DNA of 64,000 nt. Source: Luteimonas sp. 9C (lineage in GTDB: Bacteria > Pseudomonadota > Gammaproteobacteria > Xanthomonadales > Xanthomonadaceae). The notes below the pieces were generated by a model. The model was not told the origin of the DNA, searched no databases, and saw nothing but the letters and a program-made list of their open reading frames with translations. Position 1 is the stretch's first letter. Each line of letters begins with the position of its first letter. The position numbers were made by a program, and so were the translations under genes. This document shows, in pieces, positions 6,316 through 17,638 of the stretch. The stretch spans positions 1,626,095 to 1,690,094 of the forward strand of contig NZ_LR733312.1 of the NCBI RefSeq assembly GCF_902506295.1, in the 5' to 3' direction.

Positions 6316-8649
6316 TCACGCGGTCGCCGCGTCGCTCGCGGCGTCGTTGGCGGCGTTGAGCTGCTGCCACAGCTGTTTCATCGCCTCGTCGAAGGGGGCA
6401 TCGACGGCGCGCACCACCGCACGTCCGGCGCCGACCAGCGCGGCCAGTTCCTCCGGCGACACCACCATCCGGCGGATGCCGCGGCGGTTCACGATCAGCA
6501 ACCGCTGGGTGAGCGGACTGATCCACGCGACGCGCGCGGCGGACTCGCGGCCGGTGTCGTCGACCAGGCGCAGCCACTGGCCGACGCGCAACTGGCGCAT
6601 GCGCGCCGCGATCGTGGGATCGAATGTCAATGCGTCATGGCCACCCGCGAGACGCAGGGCGGGATCGGGCGCGTCGTCCTCGACTTCCGAAGACTGTGGG
6701 GCGTGCACGCTGCGCGGCGTATCCGGCATTGCCAGCGCGGCGATGATCCGCGCCACCGCATCGCGCGCAGCGCCGGCATCGAGACCGCAACTGGAATAGC
6801 ACTCGGCCAGCGGCACCTGCAGCGCGAGCAGCTCGTCGGCGACGGCGGCGCCCAATGCGTGCGCGGCGTCGAAGTCGACCTGGACCATCGCGTCGCCGAT
6901 GCCGATCGCGGTGAGATGCCGCGCGGAATCCGGGCCTTCGCGCAGCCAGGTCTGGGTGAGGTGGTGCCGCCAGTGGCGATCGAGGAAGAACGCCACCGCG
7001 GCCGTCAGCCTGCGCCCGGACAACCGCGAGGCGACCATGTCGTCGACGCTGCGACGCGCCTGCTGCAACCGCTCGCGGCCGTGGATCGACTCGGCCGCGC
7101 GGCGTTCGGCGACATCCGCGCGCCGGCGTTGCTGGTCGAGCCGTTCGCGCAGTTCGCCGGCGGCCAGTTCGAACACCGCCTGGTCGCTCTCGTACTCGTC
7201 CACGACCCGGTCGACAACGCGACCGGCCTGGTCGAGCAGGTCACGATCCTGGGGCGTGTCGCCGACATTGCCGTCGCAGGCCTCGGTGACCGCGTCCAGC
7301 AGCCGGCGCGCGGGGTGGGCGCGCTGGTTGAACATCGAGTCGTCGGTCAGCGCGACCTTGAGATAGGGCATGACCAGCCGGCCATAGATGTCACGCGCCT
7401 GCTGCAGCAGATCGTTGGCGTCGAACAGCGACTGGAACAGGATGCCGATCAGATCGATCGCGTCCTGGTCCTCGCGGCGCATCGGCGTCTGTTCGGGGTC
7501 CACGCCCAGCTCGCGCAGGCCGCGCAGGAGCTCGTCCCGGATCACGTCGCCCAGACGACGGCGGTCGTCACCGACCAGCGCCCGCGCGAATGGCGCGGGA
7601 TCGTCGCCCTGCAGCATCCGGGCGACGCTGAGCAGTTGTGACATGCCCAGCACCGGTCCGCCGGCGCCATCGGCGCCGGTATCCGTCGGCGTGTCGTGTG
7701 CACGGCGCTCGCGCCACTGGTGCAGCTGTTCGCGCACGAGGTCGCGGTATCCGCGCGGTGCGCTCTGACCGGCGTGTGGATGGCCGTGCGCGGCCAGGAC
7801 ATCCATCAGGCCCGACGAAAGCGGTCCATAGCCGGCGACGTCCGTCTCGGCCGCGTTCGTCGCGGTAGATTCGGCGTGGGCCACCACGCCGCCTTCGGGC
7901 ACCCAGCTGTCGCCGGCGGGCTCGCGATGCGCGGCACGCGCCGGCGCCACCGCGTGCGCGGCGGGTCGCGCCGACGCCTGCGGCGTCACCGCACCCGGAC
8001 CGATCCCGGCCGCATCCATGGATGCGTTGGCCTTGGCGTAGACCTCGGCCAGAATGCCCGGCAGGCGCTTGTCGAACTGGTTGAACACCATGGTCCGCAG
8101 GCCGGCCGGTAGTTCGTCGGCCTTGAACAGCCGCATGAACGCCATGACCGGGACTTCCGGACGCAAGGGGTTGGCGTGCACGCCCTCGATTCCGAGACGG
8201 GTCGCCAGGGCGTCGAGCCGATCGGCGAGCGCAGCGAGCGGATGCAGGAACTGGTGATCCATCAGCTCCACGATCTGCTGCGCGGCCAACTGGACCTCCA
8301 ACTCGCCTTCCGACATCAACGACAGTCCGTCGGCGACCGGCGGCGCAGGGCGATCGGCCAGCCACTGGTCGAATTCGGTTTCGATGGTCTTGCGGAAGCG
8401 GGTCGCGAGTTCCAGTGCGCGCTGGCTCAGATCGAGCACGGCCATGCGCTCTTCCTGCGCGACCATGTAGTCGTGGCGTGCGATCGCAGCCAGCCGGACC
8501 TGCTCTTCGATGGCGCTCCAGAAGCCTGACAACACCCCGCCCAGCGCGGTCACCGCGTCATGCCGCAGCGTTTCGAGGACGCGCGCGGCGTCGCGGGCGG
8601 GCCCCGCGCGCACGCCGGAGGCGGCGCCGATGTCGTGGTGATGCGTCAT
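6316..8649 (-). CDS. DUF1631 family protein, copy 2
   Basis: 777 residues, same family as its downstream neighbour, with the cleaner family signature: LSLMSEGELEVQLAAQQIVELMDHQF at about 110-135, then LGIEGVHANPLRPEVPVMAF and FNQFDKRLPGILAEVY. A low-complexity Ala/His/Pro-rich linker follows (around 225-300), then a helical block with IDLIGILFQSLFDANDL. The C-terminal about 100 residues carry a beta-rich module (LRVGQWLRLVDD, ARVAWISPL, RLLIVNRRGIRRMVVSPEELAALV) that resembles a PilZ-like barrel. The start at 8649 gives the natural family N-terminus; no Shine-Dalgarno is visible (the upstream minus-strand bases are pyrimidine-rich). It is divergent from the nitroreductase gene. Confidence 0.85.
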   Translation of the reverse strand: MTHHHDIGAASGVRAGPARDAARVLETLRHDAVTALGGVLSGFWSAIEEQVRLAAIARHDYMVAQEERMAVLDLSQRALELATRFRKTIETEFDQWLADRPAPPVADGLSLMSEGELEVQLAAQQIVELMDHQFLHPLAALADRLDALATRLGIEGVHANPLRPEVPVMAFMRLFKADELPAGLRTMVFNQFDKRLPGILAEVYAKANASMDAAGIGPGAVTPQASARPAAHAVAPARAAHREPAGDSWVPEGGVVAHAESTATNAAETDVAGYGPLSSGLMDVLAAHGHPHAGQSAPRGYRDLVREQLHQWRERRAHDTPTDTGADGAGGPVLGMSQLLSVARMLQGDDPAPFARALVGDDRRRLGDVIRDELLRGLRELGVDPEQTPMRREDQDAIDLIGILFQSLFDANDLLQQARDIYGRLVMPYLKVALTDDSMFNQRAHPARRLLDAVTEACDGNVGDTPQDRDLLDQAGRVVDRVVDEYESDQAVFELAAGELRERLDQQRRRADVAERRAAESIHGRERLQQARRSVDDMVASRLSGRRLTAAVAFFLDRHWRHHLTQTWLREGPDSARHLTAIGIGDAMVQVDFDAAHALGAAVADELLALQVPLAECYSSCGLDAGAARDAVARIIAALAMPDTPRSVHAPQSSEVEDDAPDPALRLAGGHDALTFDPTIAARMRQLRVGQWLRLVDDTGRESAARVAWISPLTQRLLIVNRRGIRRMVVSPEELAALVGAGRAVVRAVDAPFDEAMKQLWQQLNAANDAASDAATA

Positions 8650-13986: not shown

Positions 13987-14309
13987 AAAATTCCGTGACG
14001 CGTGTGGGAGGGAGGTACGGACACGGAATCCGATGCGCGGCCCTTGGGGCCGCTGGCGCCGCCTAGAACCACTGCGCGACGCCTGTTGACCCGATATTGC
14101 TGCAGCGCAACAGCGATTGCAAGCGCGTATGTAATCGTTTCCATTGAGACTGTTTCGATGGATCTCGCGCCAGCGTTCCATAGCCATAGGCTATCGATTG
14201 AATTCCTATTATCGATTTCCCATATCGATAGATGGCGCCTACTCTATGTGCAGCCGGATTCGCCGGCCGCGATGGCAAGTCGCACGCCTTCCCCCGTCCA
14301 GGAGCTTTC
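13987..14309 (+). promoter_or_regulatory. Intergenic region upstream of ahpC
   Basis: No gene is seen in this stretch. It contains a second perfect 7-bp hairpin (14037-14053: GCGGCCC, TTG, GGGCCGC) and, from about 14080, a marked drop in GC with many ATCGAT/CTAT-type words, typical of a regulated promoter. A TTGAAT -35-like hexamer is at 14198-14203 with weak -10 candidates around 14221-14228. The OxyR-like site overlaps this -35. Confidence 0.55.
14180..14216 (+). promoter_or_regulatory. OxyR-like operator of ahpC
   Basis: The OxyR consensus is four ATAG/CTAT-type elements spaced by 7 nt. Here ATAG (14180-14183), 7 nt, CTAT (14191-14194) match perfectly; after 7 nt comes ATTC and after 7 more CGAT, which match partly. 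The site overlaps the candidate -35 (14198-14203), the position used for activation by OxyR. oxyR itself lies 2.5 kb downstream. Confidence 0.6.
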
Positions 14310-14873
14310 ATGTCCCTCATCAACACCGAAGTCCAGCCGTTCAAGACCACCGCGTTCCAGAACGGCGAGTTCATCGAAGTCAGCAACGAGAGCCTCAAGG
14401 GCAAGTGGTCGGTCCTGATCTTCATGCCGGCCGCCTTCACCTTCAATTGCCCGACCGAAGTCGAGGACGCCGCCGACAACTACGCGCAGTTCCAGAAGCT
14501 GGGCGCCGAGGTCTACATCGTCACCACCGACACGCACTTCTCGCACAAGGTCTGGCACGAAACCTCGCCGGCCGTCGGCAAGGCGCAGTTCCCGCTGGTC
14601 GGCGATCCGACCCATCAGCTGACCCGCGCGTTCGGCGTGCACATCGAAGAAGCCGGCTTGGCCCTGCGCGGCACCTTCGTGATCAATCCCGAAGGCGTGA
14701 TCAAGACCGTCGAGATCCACGACAACGCGATCGCCCGTGACGTCAGCGAGACCCTGCGCAAGCTCAAGGCTGCCCAGTACGTCGCCGCCAACCCGAACGA
14801 GGTCTGCCCGGCCAAGTGGAAGGACGGCGAGAAGACCATCGCCCCGTCGCTCGACCTCGTCGGCAAGATCTGA
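14310..14873 (+). CDS. ahpC: Alkyl hydroperoxide reductase peroxiredoxin subunit
   Basis: 187 aa typical 2-Cys peroxiredoxin that reduces H2O2 and organic peroxides. The peroxidatic Cys47 is in FTFNCPTE (most AhpC have FTFVCPTE) and the resolving Cys166 is in VCPAKW; the C-terminal APSLDLVGKI end matches E. coli AhpC. The ATG at 14310 is preceded by AGGAG at 7 nt; an upstream in-frame ATG at 14232 would add 26 residues without homology. It is followed after 196 bp by ahpF, with two overlapping strong hairpins in between. Regulation by OxyR is expected from the operator upstream. Confidence 0.97.
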   Translation: MSLINTEVQPFKTTAFQNGEFIEVSNESLKGKWSVLIFMPAAFTFNCPTEVEDAADNYAQFQKLGAEVYIVTTDTHFSHKVWHETSPAVGKAQFPLVGDPTHQLTRAFGVHIEEAGLALRGTFVINPEGVIKTVEIHDNAIARDVSETLRKLKAAQYVAANPNEVCPAKWKDGEKTIAPSLDLVGKI

Positions 14874-14922
14874 TCGCCTGATCTGATCGTGTGACACGAC
14901 GGCGCAGTCCATCGCGCCGTTT

Positions 14923-14997
14923 CCACCCCCATCCCGCACAGCGAGGATGGGGGTGGACCGCAGCCGGCACCCTCCCCCGCCGGCTGCGGTCCACCCC
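14923..14997 (+). promoter_or_regulatory. Two mutually exclusive hairpins between ahpC and ahpF
   Basis: Hairpin A: a perfect 12-bp stem, 14923-14934 with 14945-14956. Hairpin B: a perfect 19-bp stem, 14950-14968 with 14979-14997, loop 10 nt. The 3' arm of A and the 5' arm of B share 14950-14956, so only one can form fully. Downstream is a C/T-rich tract, not a U-run. The pair starts 50 nt after the ahpC stop and ends about 70 nt before the ahpF start. It may stabilise the ahpC mRNA end, lower ahpF expression relative to ahpC, or be a dispersed repeat. Confidence 0.6.
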
Positions 14998-15069
14998 TCT
15001 CCCCCGGTTCCGGCGCGCCGCTTTGCCGGCGCGTCGCGGACGCCCCCACCCGTCGTCAGGAGCGTTGCC

Positions 15070-16653
15070 ATGTTGGAAGCCGATCTCAAGGCGCAGTTGA
15101 AGGCCTATCTGGAACGCGCGGTGCGCCCGATCCACATCGTCGCGTCGGTCGACGACGGCGCGAAGTCGCGCGAGCTGCTGTCGCTGCTCGAAGACCTCAA
15201 GGATGCGAGTCCGAAGATCACCGTCGACGCCGCCGGCACCGACGCGCGCAAGCCGTCGTTCGCACTGACTTCGCCGCATACGGACATCGACGTGCGCTTC
15301 GCCGGCCTGCCGATGGGTCACGAGTTCACCTCGCTGGTGCTGGCGCTGCTGCAGGTCGGCGGTCATCCGTCGAAGGCGGCCAAGGACACGATCGAGCAGG
15401 TCGCGGCGCTCGATGGCGACTACACCTTCGAGACCTACTACTCGCTGTCTTGCCAGAACTGCCCGGACGTGGTGCAGGCGTTGAACCTCGCCGCCGTGCT
15501 GAATCCGCGCATCCGCCACACCGCGATCGACGGCGCGCTGTTCCAGGCGGAAGTCGAGGCGCGCGAGATCATGTCGGTGCCGACGGTGTTCCTCAACGGC
15601 CAGAAGTTCGACCAGGGTCGGATGACGCTGGAGCAGATCGTCGCCAAGCTCGACACCGGCGCGGCCGACCGCGCGGCGAAGGCGATCGCGACCAAGAAGC
15701 CGTTCGAGGTGCTGGTAATCGGTGGCGGCCCGGCCGGCGCGGCCGCGGCGATCTACGCCGCGCGCAAGGGCATCCGCACGGGCGTGGCGTCGGAGCGTTT
15801 CGGTGGCCAGGTGCTGGACACGATGGCGATCGAGAACTTCATTTCGGTCAAGGAGACCGAAGGCCCGAAGATGGCCGCGGCGCTGGAACAGCACGTGCGC
15901 GAGTACGACGTCGACATCATGGACCTGCAGCGCGCGACGCAGCTGGTGCCGGCGGGCGATGACGGCCTGATCGGAATCCAGCTGGATAACGGGGCGTCGC
16001 TGACGTCGCGCACCGTCGTGCTGTCGACCGGCGCGCGCTGGCGGCAGATGGGCGTGCCCGGCGAGGACCAGTACCGCAACAAGGGCGTGGCCTATTGCCC
16101 GCACTGCGACGGGCCGCTGTTCAAGGGCAAGCGCGTGGCGGTGATCGGCGGTGGCAATTCCGGTGTCGAAGCCGCGATCGATCTGGCCGGCATCGTCGCC
16201 CACGTCACCCTGATCGAGTTCGACGCGCAGCTGCGCGCCGACGAAGTGCTGCAGCGCAAGCTGCGCAGCCTGCCGAACGTGCGCATCGTGACCAGCGCGC
16301 AGACGACCGAAGTGCTCGGCGACGGCGCGAAGGTCAATGCGCTGGTCTACCGCGACCGGGTCGGCGGTGACAGCCACCGTGTCGAACTGGAGGGTGTGTT
16401 CGTGCAGATCGGCCTGCTGCCCAATACCGAATGGCTCAAGGGCGTGGTCGCGCTGTCGCCGCGTGGCGAGATCATCGTCGACGATCGCGGCCAGACCTCG
16501 TTGCCCGGTGTGTTCGCCGCTGGCGACGCGACGACGGTGCCCTACAAGCAGATCGTCATCGCAATGGGCCAGGGCGCCACGGCTGCGCTCAGCGCGTTCG
16601 ATCATCTGATACGCGTGCCGGTCGTCGAGACGGCCGAGGCCGAAGCGGCGTGA
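15070..16653 (+). CDS. ahpF: Alkyl hydroperoxide reductase flavoprotein subunit
   Basis: 527 aa FAD enzyme that passes electrons from NADH to AhpC. The N-terminal tandem-thioredoxin domain has its CxxC at Cys128/Cys131 (SCQNCP). The thioredoxin-reductase-like part has the FAD loop [10 protein letters not shown], the second redox CxxC at Cys343/Cys346 (YCPHCDGP), the NADH-binding [10 protein letters not shown] and the C-terminal FAAGDAT motif. Length and spacing match E. coli AhpF (521 aa). AGGAG precedes the ATG by 7 nt. It may be cotranscribed with oxyR and the rnk-like gene as in Xanthomonas. Confidence 0.97.
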
Positions 16654-16707: not shown

Positions 16708-16726
16708 CGTGTGCGGAGCGCGCGCC

Positions 16727-17638
16727 GTGAACCTGCGCGACCTGCGCTATCTGGTCGCGCTCGCCGACGAGCGGCATTTCGGCCGCGCCGCGGCCGCGTG
16801 TTTCGTCAGTCAGCCGACGCTGTCGACGCAGATCCGCAAGCTCGAAGAAGAACTCGGCGTCGCGCTCGTCGAACGCGCACCGCGCAAGGTCATGCTGACG
16901 CCGATCGGCGTGCAGGTCGCCGACCGCGCGCGCCGCATCGTCGGCGATGTCGAGCAGATGAAAGCATTGGCCCGGCGCAGCATGGATCCCGAAGCCGGTT
17001 CGATCCGGCTCGGCCTGTTTCCGACCCTCGGCCCGTATCTGCTGCCGCATGCCGTGCCGCCGCTGCGCGCACGGTTTCCGCAGCTGGAACTGCTGCTGGT
17101 CGAAGAGAAGAGCGACGTGCTGCTGACGCGACTGCGCGACGGCCGCCTGGATGCTGCGATCCTCGCGCTGCCGGTCGACGAGGACGCACTGCATGCCGAA
17201 TTCCTGTTCGAGGAACCTTTCCTGCTCGCGGTGTCCGACCAGCATCCGCTGGCCGCGCGCGAACGTTTGAGTCTGCAGGAGCTGTCGTCGCAGAAGCTGT
17301 TGCTGCTCGAGGATGGGCATTGCATGCGCGAACAGGCGCTGGACGTCTGTCGTCTCTCGGGCGCCGGCGAACATGCCGAGTTCCGCGCCACCAGTCTGGA
17401 AACGCTGCGGCAGATGGTCGCCGCGAATGTCGGCGTGACCTTGCTGCCGGTGCTGGCGACCAAGCCGCCGGTCGCGCCGTCGCCGCATCTGCGCCTGCTC
17501 GATTTCAGCGACACCCGCCCGACCCGGCGCATCGCCCTGGTCTGGCGCCGCAGCTCGGCCATGCACGCGTTCCTGCTGGAACTGGCGGGCGTACTGCGCG
17601 ATCTGCCACCCGCGTTGTTCGAGCACGCTGCGGCCTGA
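16727..17638 (+). CDS. oxyR: Hydrogen peroxide-sensing LysR-type regulator OxyR
   Basis: 303 aa LysR-family activator/repressor. The N-terminal winged helix-turn-helix (NLRDLRYLVALADERHFGRAAA, SQPTLSTQIRKLE) is followed by the effector domain, which has Cys199 (DGHCMREQ) and Cys208 (ALDVCRL) at exactly the E. coli positions; these form the regulatory disulfide. GTG start: GGAG lies 8 nt upstream and the protein begins like other OxyR. Position after ahpF and before a small rnk-like gene matches the ahpF-oxyR-orfX arrangement described for Xanthomonas. Expected targets include ahpC through the upstream operator. Confidence 0.96.
   Translation: MNLRDLRYLVALADERHFGRAAAACFVSQPTLSTQIRKLEEELGVALVERAPRKVMLTPIGVQVADRARRIVGDVEQMKALARRSMDPEAGSIRLGLFPTLGPYLLPHAVPPLRARFPQLELLLVEEKSDVLLTRLRDGRLDAAILALPVDEDALHAEFLFEEPFLLAVSDQHPLAARERLSLQELSSQKLLLLEDGHCMREQALDVCRLSGAGEHAEFRATSLETLRQMVAANVGVTLLPVLATKPPVAPSPHLRLLDFSDTRPTRRIALVWRRSSAMHAFLLELAGVLRDLPPALFEHAAA

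Follow-up and report, generated by a model that had tools for sequence, protein, structure and literature searches.

A run of predicted hairpins between ahpC and ahpF of Luteimonas sp. 9C as a candidate intercistronic RNA processing element

In Luteimonas sp. 9C (genome size 3.35 Mb) the genes ahpC and ahpF and an oxyR-like gene follow each other on one strand, and the 196 nt gap between ahpC and ahpF is predicted to fold into four consecutive hairpins, designated H1, A, B and H4. We consider it somewhat likely that the RNA of this gap is an intercistronic element at which the ahpC-ahpF(-oxyR) transcript is split and which sets ahpC above ahpF, and the hairpin run probably helps the cell to produce more AhpC than AhpF. 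In our best reading the type of element, an intercistronic processing or stabilising hairpin, is already known and this case is a new one. All positions refer to the window, i.e., the whole stretch of DNA that was analysed (64 kb). The genes and sites around the gap are:

14180-14216, + strand: OxyR-like site 5′ of ahpC, matching 13 of 16 fixed letters
14310-14873, + strand: ahpC (TIGR03137, 318 bits, cut-off 272)
14891-15100: GTG frame of 69 codons that crosses the ahpC-ahpF gap, a candidate leader peptide
15070-16653, + strand: ahpF (TIGR03140, 779 bits, cut-off 503), with AGGAG at 15058-15062
16709-17638, + strand: gene for an oxyR-like LysR regulator (best NCBIfam match OxyR PRK11151, 319 bits, slightly below the cut-off of 329)

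Sites for OxyR were scored with a repeated ATAG-N7-CTAT, which we take to be the OxyR motif. The site upstream of ahpC has the highest score in the 64-kb window (the runner-up reached 11), and 20 mononucleotide-shuffled windows peaked at 10-12. Transcription would start upstream of ahpC, from a promoter under the control of OxyR, and then read through the gap. A promoter scan of 14100-15200 returned no sites and is uninformative, since the expected number was 0.1. An ATG in frame with ahpF lies upstream of it at 14947; it was taken as chance, because no more than 11 of 94 gaps leave an extension of at least 100 nt open.

The features of the gap are as follows:

14898-14921, + strand: hairpin H1 of the predicted fold, the first 3′ of the ahpC stop, 8 bp including one G-U pair
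14922-14957, + strand: hairpin A, a perfect stem of 13 bp with 3 further inner pairs next to a 1-nt bulge
14950-14957, + strand: the eight bases common to A (3′ arm) and B (5′ arm)
14950-14997, + strand: hairpin B, a perfect 19-bp stem closed by a 10-nt loop
14998-15010, + strand: pyrimidine-rich stretch 3′ of B (11 of 13 nt), where a U-run would sit
15011-15036, + strand: hairpin H4 of the predicted fold, upstream of the ahpF ribosome-binding site

For the region 14890-15040 an MFE of −95.7 kcal/mol was calculated (z −7.8), and none of 200 dinucleotide shuffles was as low. The arms of A are TCCACCCCCATCC (14922-14934) and GGATGGGGGTGGA (14945-14957), those of B are GGGGTGGACCGCAGCCGGC (14950-14968) and GCCGGCTGCGGTCCACCCC (14979-14997). 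At 92% pairing the arms of B lengthen to 24 nt each, spanning 14945-15002. The initial annotation had described perfect stems of 12 and 19 bp that share seven bases, placed exactly where the levels of ahpC and ahpF mRNA should diverge. The position, the 19 bp stem and the overlap hold; A has 13 bp, and eight bases are shared, seven only with A taken as 12 bp. The window sequence also agrees with it on the missing U-run, none being present after B. H1 and H4 are two extra hairpins that were not part of that annotation.

The same annotation had taken A and B for mutually exclusive folds, as in an attenuator. The predicted energies speak against this. One 8-mer, TCCACCCC, is present both in the 5′ arm of A and in the 3′ arm of B, so that every shared base pairs identically in A or in B. 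The nine partitions, in which zero to eight of the shared bases were assigned to B, ranged from −51.9 to −52.6 kcal/mol, a spread of at most 0.7, and two stable mutually exclusive folds, as expected for an attenuator or a riboswitch, were not found in these partition energies. Fold energies were −71.9 kcal/mol with A full, −72.0 with B full and −72.5 for the optimum, in which the shared bases are split; the full-A and full-B folds thus lie at most 0.6 kcal/mol from the optimum, and A and B are present in each. Because B retains 11 and A 5 + 3 private pairs, the two hairpins are predicted always to form together, and their overlap in the modelled folds is a junction that can slide between two hairpins present at the same time.

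We compared the shared bases in eight sequences, the window and seven relatives. Base 14956 is A instead of G in three of the eight, and its partner has changed in all three cases in B and in one of three in A, a comparison of few sequences in which the alignment of A is uncertain for one of the three (G024). Over the eight shared positions, 64 of 64 cells are paired in B and 60 of 64 in A. A regulated attenuator, or a switch between two folds that exclude each other, would find support in the retention of the overlap: arms overlap by at least 5 nt in 37 of 94 non-redundant gaps, versus a mean of 10.8 and a maximum of 20 in 500 permutations of the flanks, a null that retains position-specific composition, not relatedness; the genus gaps, counted on their own, gave 22 of 34. 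Against such a switch stand the flat energies of the coexisting hairpins, the preservation of B rather than A on change of a shared base, the lack of a U-run after B, and the Rfam search of 14000-15300, in which no family reached its gathering score. We therefore hold the switch to be very improbable. At E ≤ 1 there were seven Rfam matches, six to miRNA models and one to DUF805b, all of which scored below the gathering score and were taken as chance. In transcription attenuators of the trp/his type, overlapping arms are ordered X, X′Y, Y′X. The arms in the gap overlap in the same order; unlike those attenuators, the ahpC-ahpF element has no U-run after B and no established leader peptide, and its states are isoenergetic and coexist.

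To follow the element through the genus and the family, ahpC-ahpF gaps were extracted from 137 of 139 loci; 130 of them are distinct. The remaining two loci are the halves of one relative (G020; L139 and L063), which is split across contigs inside the hairpins. The assembly of this relative is interrupted at the A/B hairpins, where each of the two contigs runs out into G/C-rich nonsense; a strong foldback that defeats sequencing might account for this break. The genus sample comprises gaps from 47 of the 49 genomes with AhpF, the family sample 90 of the 153 genomes with an AhpC match; the 63 other family genomes mostly have lower-scoring AhpC, and the genus sample includes three of them (G004, G026, G033). 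Removal of redundant gaps, gaps shorter than 100 nt and gaps with N left 94 gaps, 89 of them with an upstream helix. Further relatives were taken as the best 80 of 591 from a scan with AhpF, in which the nearest named record is Lysobacteraceae bacterium PS02340 (95%), followed by Luteimonas sp. 4-12 (94%). An adjacent ahpC was present in 78 of these 80, and the stem test was applied to the 52 of the 78 that were assigned to a genus, near-duplicates being kept; [Pseudomonas] boreopolis was grouped with Xanthomonas, where we presume it to belong.

The best ungapped stem exceeded all 20 dinucleotide shuffles in each of the 34 non-redundant genus gaps, with a median score of 21.8 versus 9.1 after shuffling. 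The same was true for 52 of 60 other family gaps, hence 86 of the 94 non-redundant gaps overall, and the stem exceeded its shuffles in 40 of 52 named gaps; it failed in 8 of the 60 non-genus family gaps and in 12 of the 52 named ones. By genus, the stem exceeded the shuffles in 7/7 Stenotrophomonas, 7/7 gaps labelled Xanthomonas and 3/3 Pseudoxanthomonas, gave mixed results in four Luteimonas and four Lysobacter, and was weak in five Rhodanobacter and two Dyella, which have 11-bp stems. One family gap (L187) leaves no room for such an element, since it is only 4 nt long. The computation shows that the long stem is retained in place across the family while its letters differ. The length of the longest bulged helix was discarded as a statistic in favour of the ungapped stem score: shuffled gaps also average 16-19 pairs. 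In that comparison one genus gap was counted as family after de-duplication.

Covariation was determined in the eight near sequences. With B drawn full, 91.6% of cells were paired, versus 90.5% with A full, so that the two drawings are hardly distinguishable overall. For the individual hairpins the values were 90.7% for H1 (double change at 1 pair), 91.1% for A, 94.1% for B (double changes at 3 pairs, and one pair mismatched in 6 of the 8 sequences) and 90% for H4 (double changes at 2 pairs). No double change was found in the inner part of A in these sequences. With B full, 12 cells showed a double change versus a shuffled mean of 5.1, and none of 500 shuffles was as high. The covariation score was above all 500 shuffles, and sliding the partners led to a sharp drop; this control is based on eight related sequences, which are few, and relatedness stays in its null. 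The pairs with a double change numbered 6 versus 3.9 after shuffling (34 of 500 shuffles as high), the further pair types 15 versus 15.6 (428 of 500 as high). The stem test, the double-change cells and the covariation score thus point to an RNA structure under selection, whereas the pairs with a double change and the pair types are unremarkable.

The rarity of the stems was tested in a 464-kb sample of the own genome, made up of the 64-kb window and 20 stretches of 20 kb, with a few bases masked. B is the only perfect stem of at least 15 bp with a loop of 3-12 nt in this sample, A and B are its only pair of perfect stems of at least 9 bp having at least 4 nt in common, and three block-shuffled copies of it contained no perfect stem of at least 17 bp. 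With mismatches and spans of up to 130 nt permitted, four other places of the sample outscored B, so it is only the perfection together with the short loop that is special, and strong imperfect hairpins as such are not. Three of these four places belong to palindromic repeats that are unrelated to the ahpC-ahpF element, namely L290 and L297, which have a repeat in common, and L295 with another repeated palindrome. The former is a REP-like repeat of the CCCTCACCCCAACCCCTCTCCC type (L290:7233-7362, L297:7188-7272 and 7749-7879), and the latter (L295:3158-3394) is a different REP-like palindromic repeat of the same genome. The window and its closest relative (G064) have 19 bp as their longest perfect run; in the six other near relatives, which have a mismatch within B, it is 9-10 bp.

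The initial annotation had proposed a search for the motif elsewhere in the genome, where numerous copies would point to a REP-type origin. Neither BLAST nor a covariance model found a second copy. A BLAST search of the own genome with the gap as query returned the gap itself, its own reverse strand and then short matches, of which the best had 31 nt (E 0.019) and was located in the H4 part. The model, built from the eight sequences, found no other place in the own genome at E ≤ 1, with 150 of 2352 first-look candidates scored. Across 52 genomes of the genus, searched with stricter filters and 92 candidates scored per genome, it gave 27 matches in 25 genomes at E ≤ 0.001, and by their coordinates all 27 fall in the ahpC-ahpF gap. 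The other 27 of the 52 genomes had no model match at this threshold, three of them being also without a match to AhpF; in the model-negative genomes that do have AhpF, the element has probably diverged in sequence. Each 12-mer of A or B is present at most three times in the 464 kb. A second match of the model and two weak BLAST matches, considered as a possible antisense copy, are the same palindromes on the opposite strand.

A remnant of an interspersed repeat of the REP type has in its favour that other palindromic repeats exist in this genome (L290, L295, L297). The numerous copies that define REP or BIME sequences were found neither by BLAST, beyond self and reverse strand, nor by the 12-mer count, nor by the model, for which part of the first-look candidates were scored and which in 25 genomes points to this gap alone, and we give such an origin hardly any weight. 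In four other genomes of the genus (L124, L125, L127, L128) a different palindromic repeat, by eye of the TGTAGGAGC or TGTGGGAGC type, is located upstream of the hairpins in the same gap.

Cleavage by RNase III cannot be predicted from sequence alone. Intercistronic stabilisation is known from malE-malF, where it is brought about by repeated REP sequences. Of the ahpC-ahpF element, by contrast, no second copy was found, and its stabilising role is a predicted one. The reference list of PMC5927463 has titles on stabilising intercistronic stem-loops, for the puf operon and for the polycistronic case of Newbury et al. The ahpC-ahpF element resembles these in having a hairpin 3′ of the upstream gene of the operon, which is expected to be the more abundant one.

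The closest precedent is the ahpCF operon of E. coli. As far as the available text of PMC5371410 goes, RNase III cleaves between ahpC and ahpF in this organism (RNA-seq and in vitro cleavage), and the half-life of ahpC mRNA is about 14 min in the wild type versus about 6 min in the rnc mutant, with the stability of ahpF unaltered; the authors proposed a hairpin that remains 3′ of ahpC and invoked a need for stoichiometry. When we folded the E. coli gap, a GC hairpin was predicted, followed by ATTTTCTT; it lies upstream of the tabulated site, assuming that the coordinate of that paper refers to NC_000913.3. Gene pair, place and the presence of a structured gap are the same in both organisms, and the plan of the Luteimonas gap, with hairpins near ahpC and then a long stem, is similar. 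The sequences are, however, unrelated, the E. coli fold is weaker (z only −2.7) and no perfect 19-bp stem is predicted in it, and cleavage was measured in E. coli, whereas for Luteimonas we infer it. Our literature search, which covered few subscription papers, found no published hairpin in the ahpC-ahpF gap of Xanthomonadaceae.

The Luteimonas genome has an RNase III-like gene with a PF14622 domain above cut-off. With 19 perfect base pairs and the gene for the enzyme present, the long stem of B would be a suitable substrate for RNase III. Processing combined with protection of the 3′ end is favoured because of the E. coli precedent, the similar plan of the gap and the RNase III-like gene; it had been named as the alternative in the initial annotation and is the better supported reading. 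Following read-through, B, with a stem of about two helical turns, would be cleaved by RNase III; alternatively, the transcript could be trimmed back to B. The ahpC part would keep H1 and A at its 3′ end, where they would stop 3′-5′ exonucleases, so that it may outlast the ahpF part.

Termination after ahpC has to be weighed against such processing, and the main rival is Rho-dependent termination past ahpC with subsequent 3′-5′ trimming to B, which would then form the stable end of ahpC mRNA with no part for RNase III. The pyrimidine-rich stretch after B is in line with this, and it is enriched across the family: at least 80% pyrimidine in the 15 nt after B was found in 37 of 89 gaps, versus 11.6% of random 15-mers from the same gaps. 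According to the available text of PMC7815308, rut sites contain much C and little G, and 3′-5′ exonucleases trim the transcripts that Rho has terminated. The stretch is, however, only 13 nt long in the window and H4 follows immediately, which leaves little unstructured RNA; furthermore, termination typically takes place 100-200 nt beyond the rut site (PMC7815308, available text), and the RNase III result from E. coli would be left unexplained. Altogether we consider Rho-dependent termination rather unlikely.

Whether termination can occur without a U-run is disputed. A partial intrinsic terminator, which in the window would have to be a GC-rich type working without a U-run, could be seen in the strong GC hairpins shortly beyond the end of ahpC, and a hairpin with a T-run does occur in the same gap in some Pseudomonas and at the family loci L172 and L085. 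In the window no T-run follows the hairpins. A T-rich tail was present in none of the 94 non-redundant family gaps when the ungapped stem was used as the rule, yet in 10 of 89 gaps, with at least 5 T within 10 nt after the stem, when the stem was defined by MFE. The candidate terminator in the window was rejected on the missing U-run, the family evidence being mixed, and we regard intrinsic termination as decidedly unlikely here. T-runs of at least 5 nt are present in 7 of the 130 distinct family gaps, those of at least 6 nt in L172 and L085. Because some gaps carry such runs, partial termination may contribute in some lineages. At L256, L260 and other Pseudomonas loci, as well as at L172 of the family, the gap has a GC hairpin and then a T-run, like an ordinary terminator. 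Lineages may thus achieve the ahpC:ahpF ratio differently, as the terminator-like hairpins with T-run in the gaps of Pseudomonas and L172 suggest. In Xanthomonas, work from 1997 reportedly described ahpC and ahpF-oxyR-orfX as separate transcripts, which would fit the processing reading and the termination rivals alike. For S. maltophilia, ahpCF is regarded as an operon in the available text of PMC7041247, which contains no data on the ahpF transcript.

On the processing reading, the eight shared bases would allow A and B to sit directly against each other, with no single-stranded linker between them. Once B is cut, these bases would return to A, which could then refold with all of its 13 bp and form the new 3′ end. 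The folds predicted for 5′ fragments ending at 14957-14968 contain A in full, which suggests that a cut in B passes the shared arm to A. It is conceivable, although we think it doubtful, that the shared arm was selected for this effect, i.e., that the element is a self-sealing processing site in which the cut in B frees the arm to complete A. If so, the end of the cut ahpC mRNA would become a nearly blunt, exonuclease-resistant hairpin, and the overlap would be a device that leaves a protected 3′ end after endonuclease cleavage.

A ring of AhpC works together with a dimer of AhpF, and in E. coli both proteins are abundant (PMC5371410, available text). With varying letters, the element occurs in Xanthomonas, Stenotrophomonas and Pseudoxanthomonas as well as in part of Luteimonas and Lysobacter. 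If it sets the AhpC:AhpF ratio, these bacteria would provide a natural series for studying how RNA structure, and not promoters, fixes the ratio of subunits, and the RNase III case of E. coli would perhaps exemplify a rule that holds for this operon more widely.
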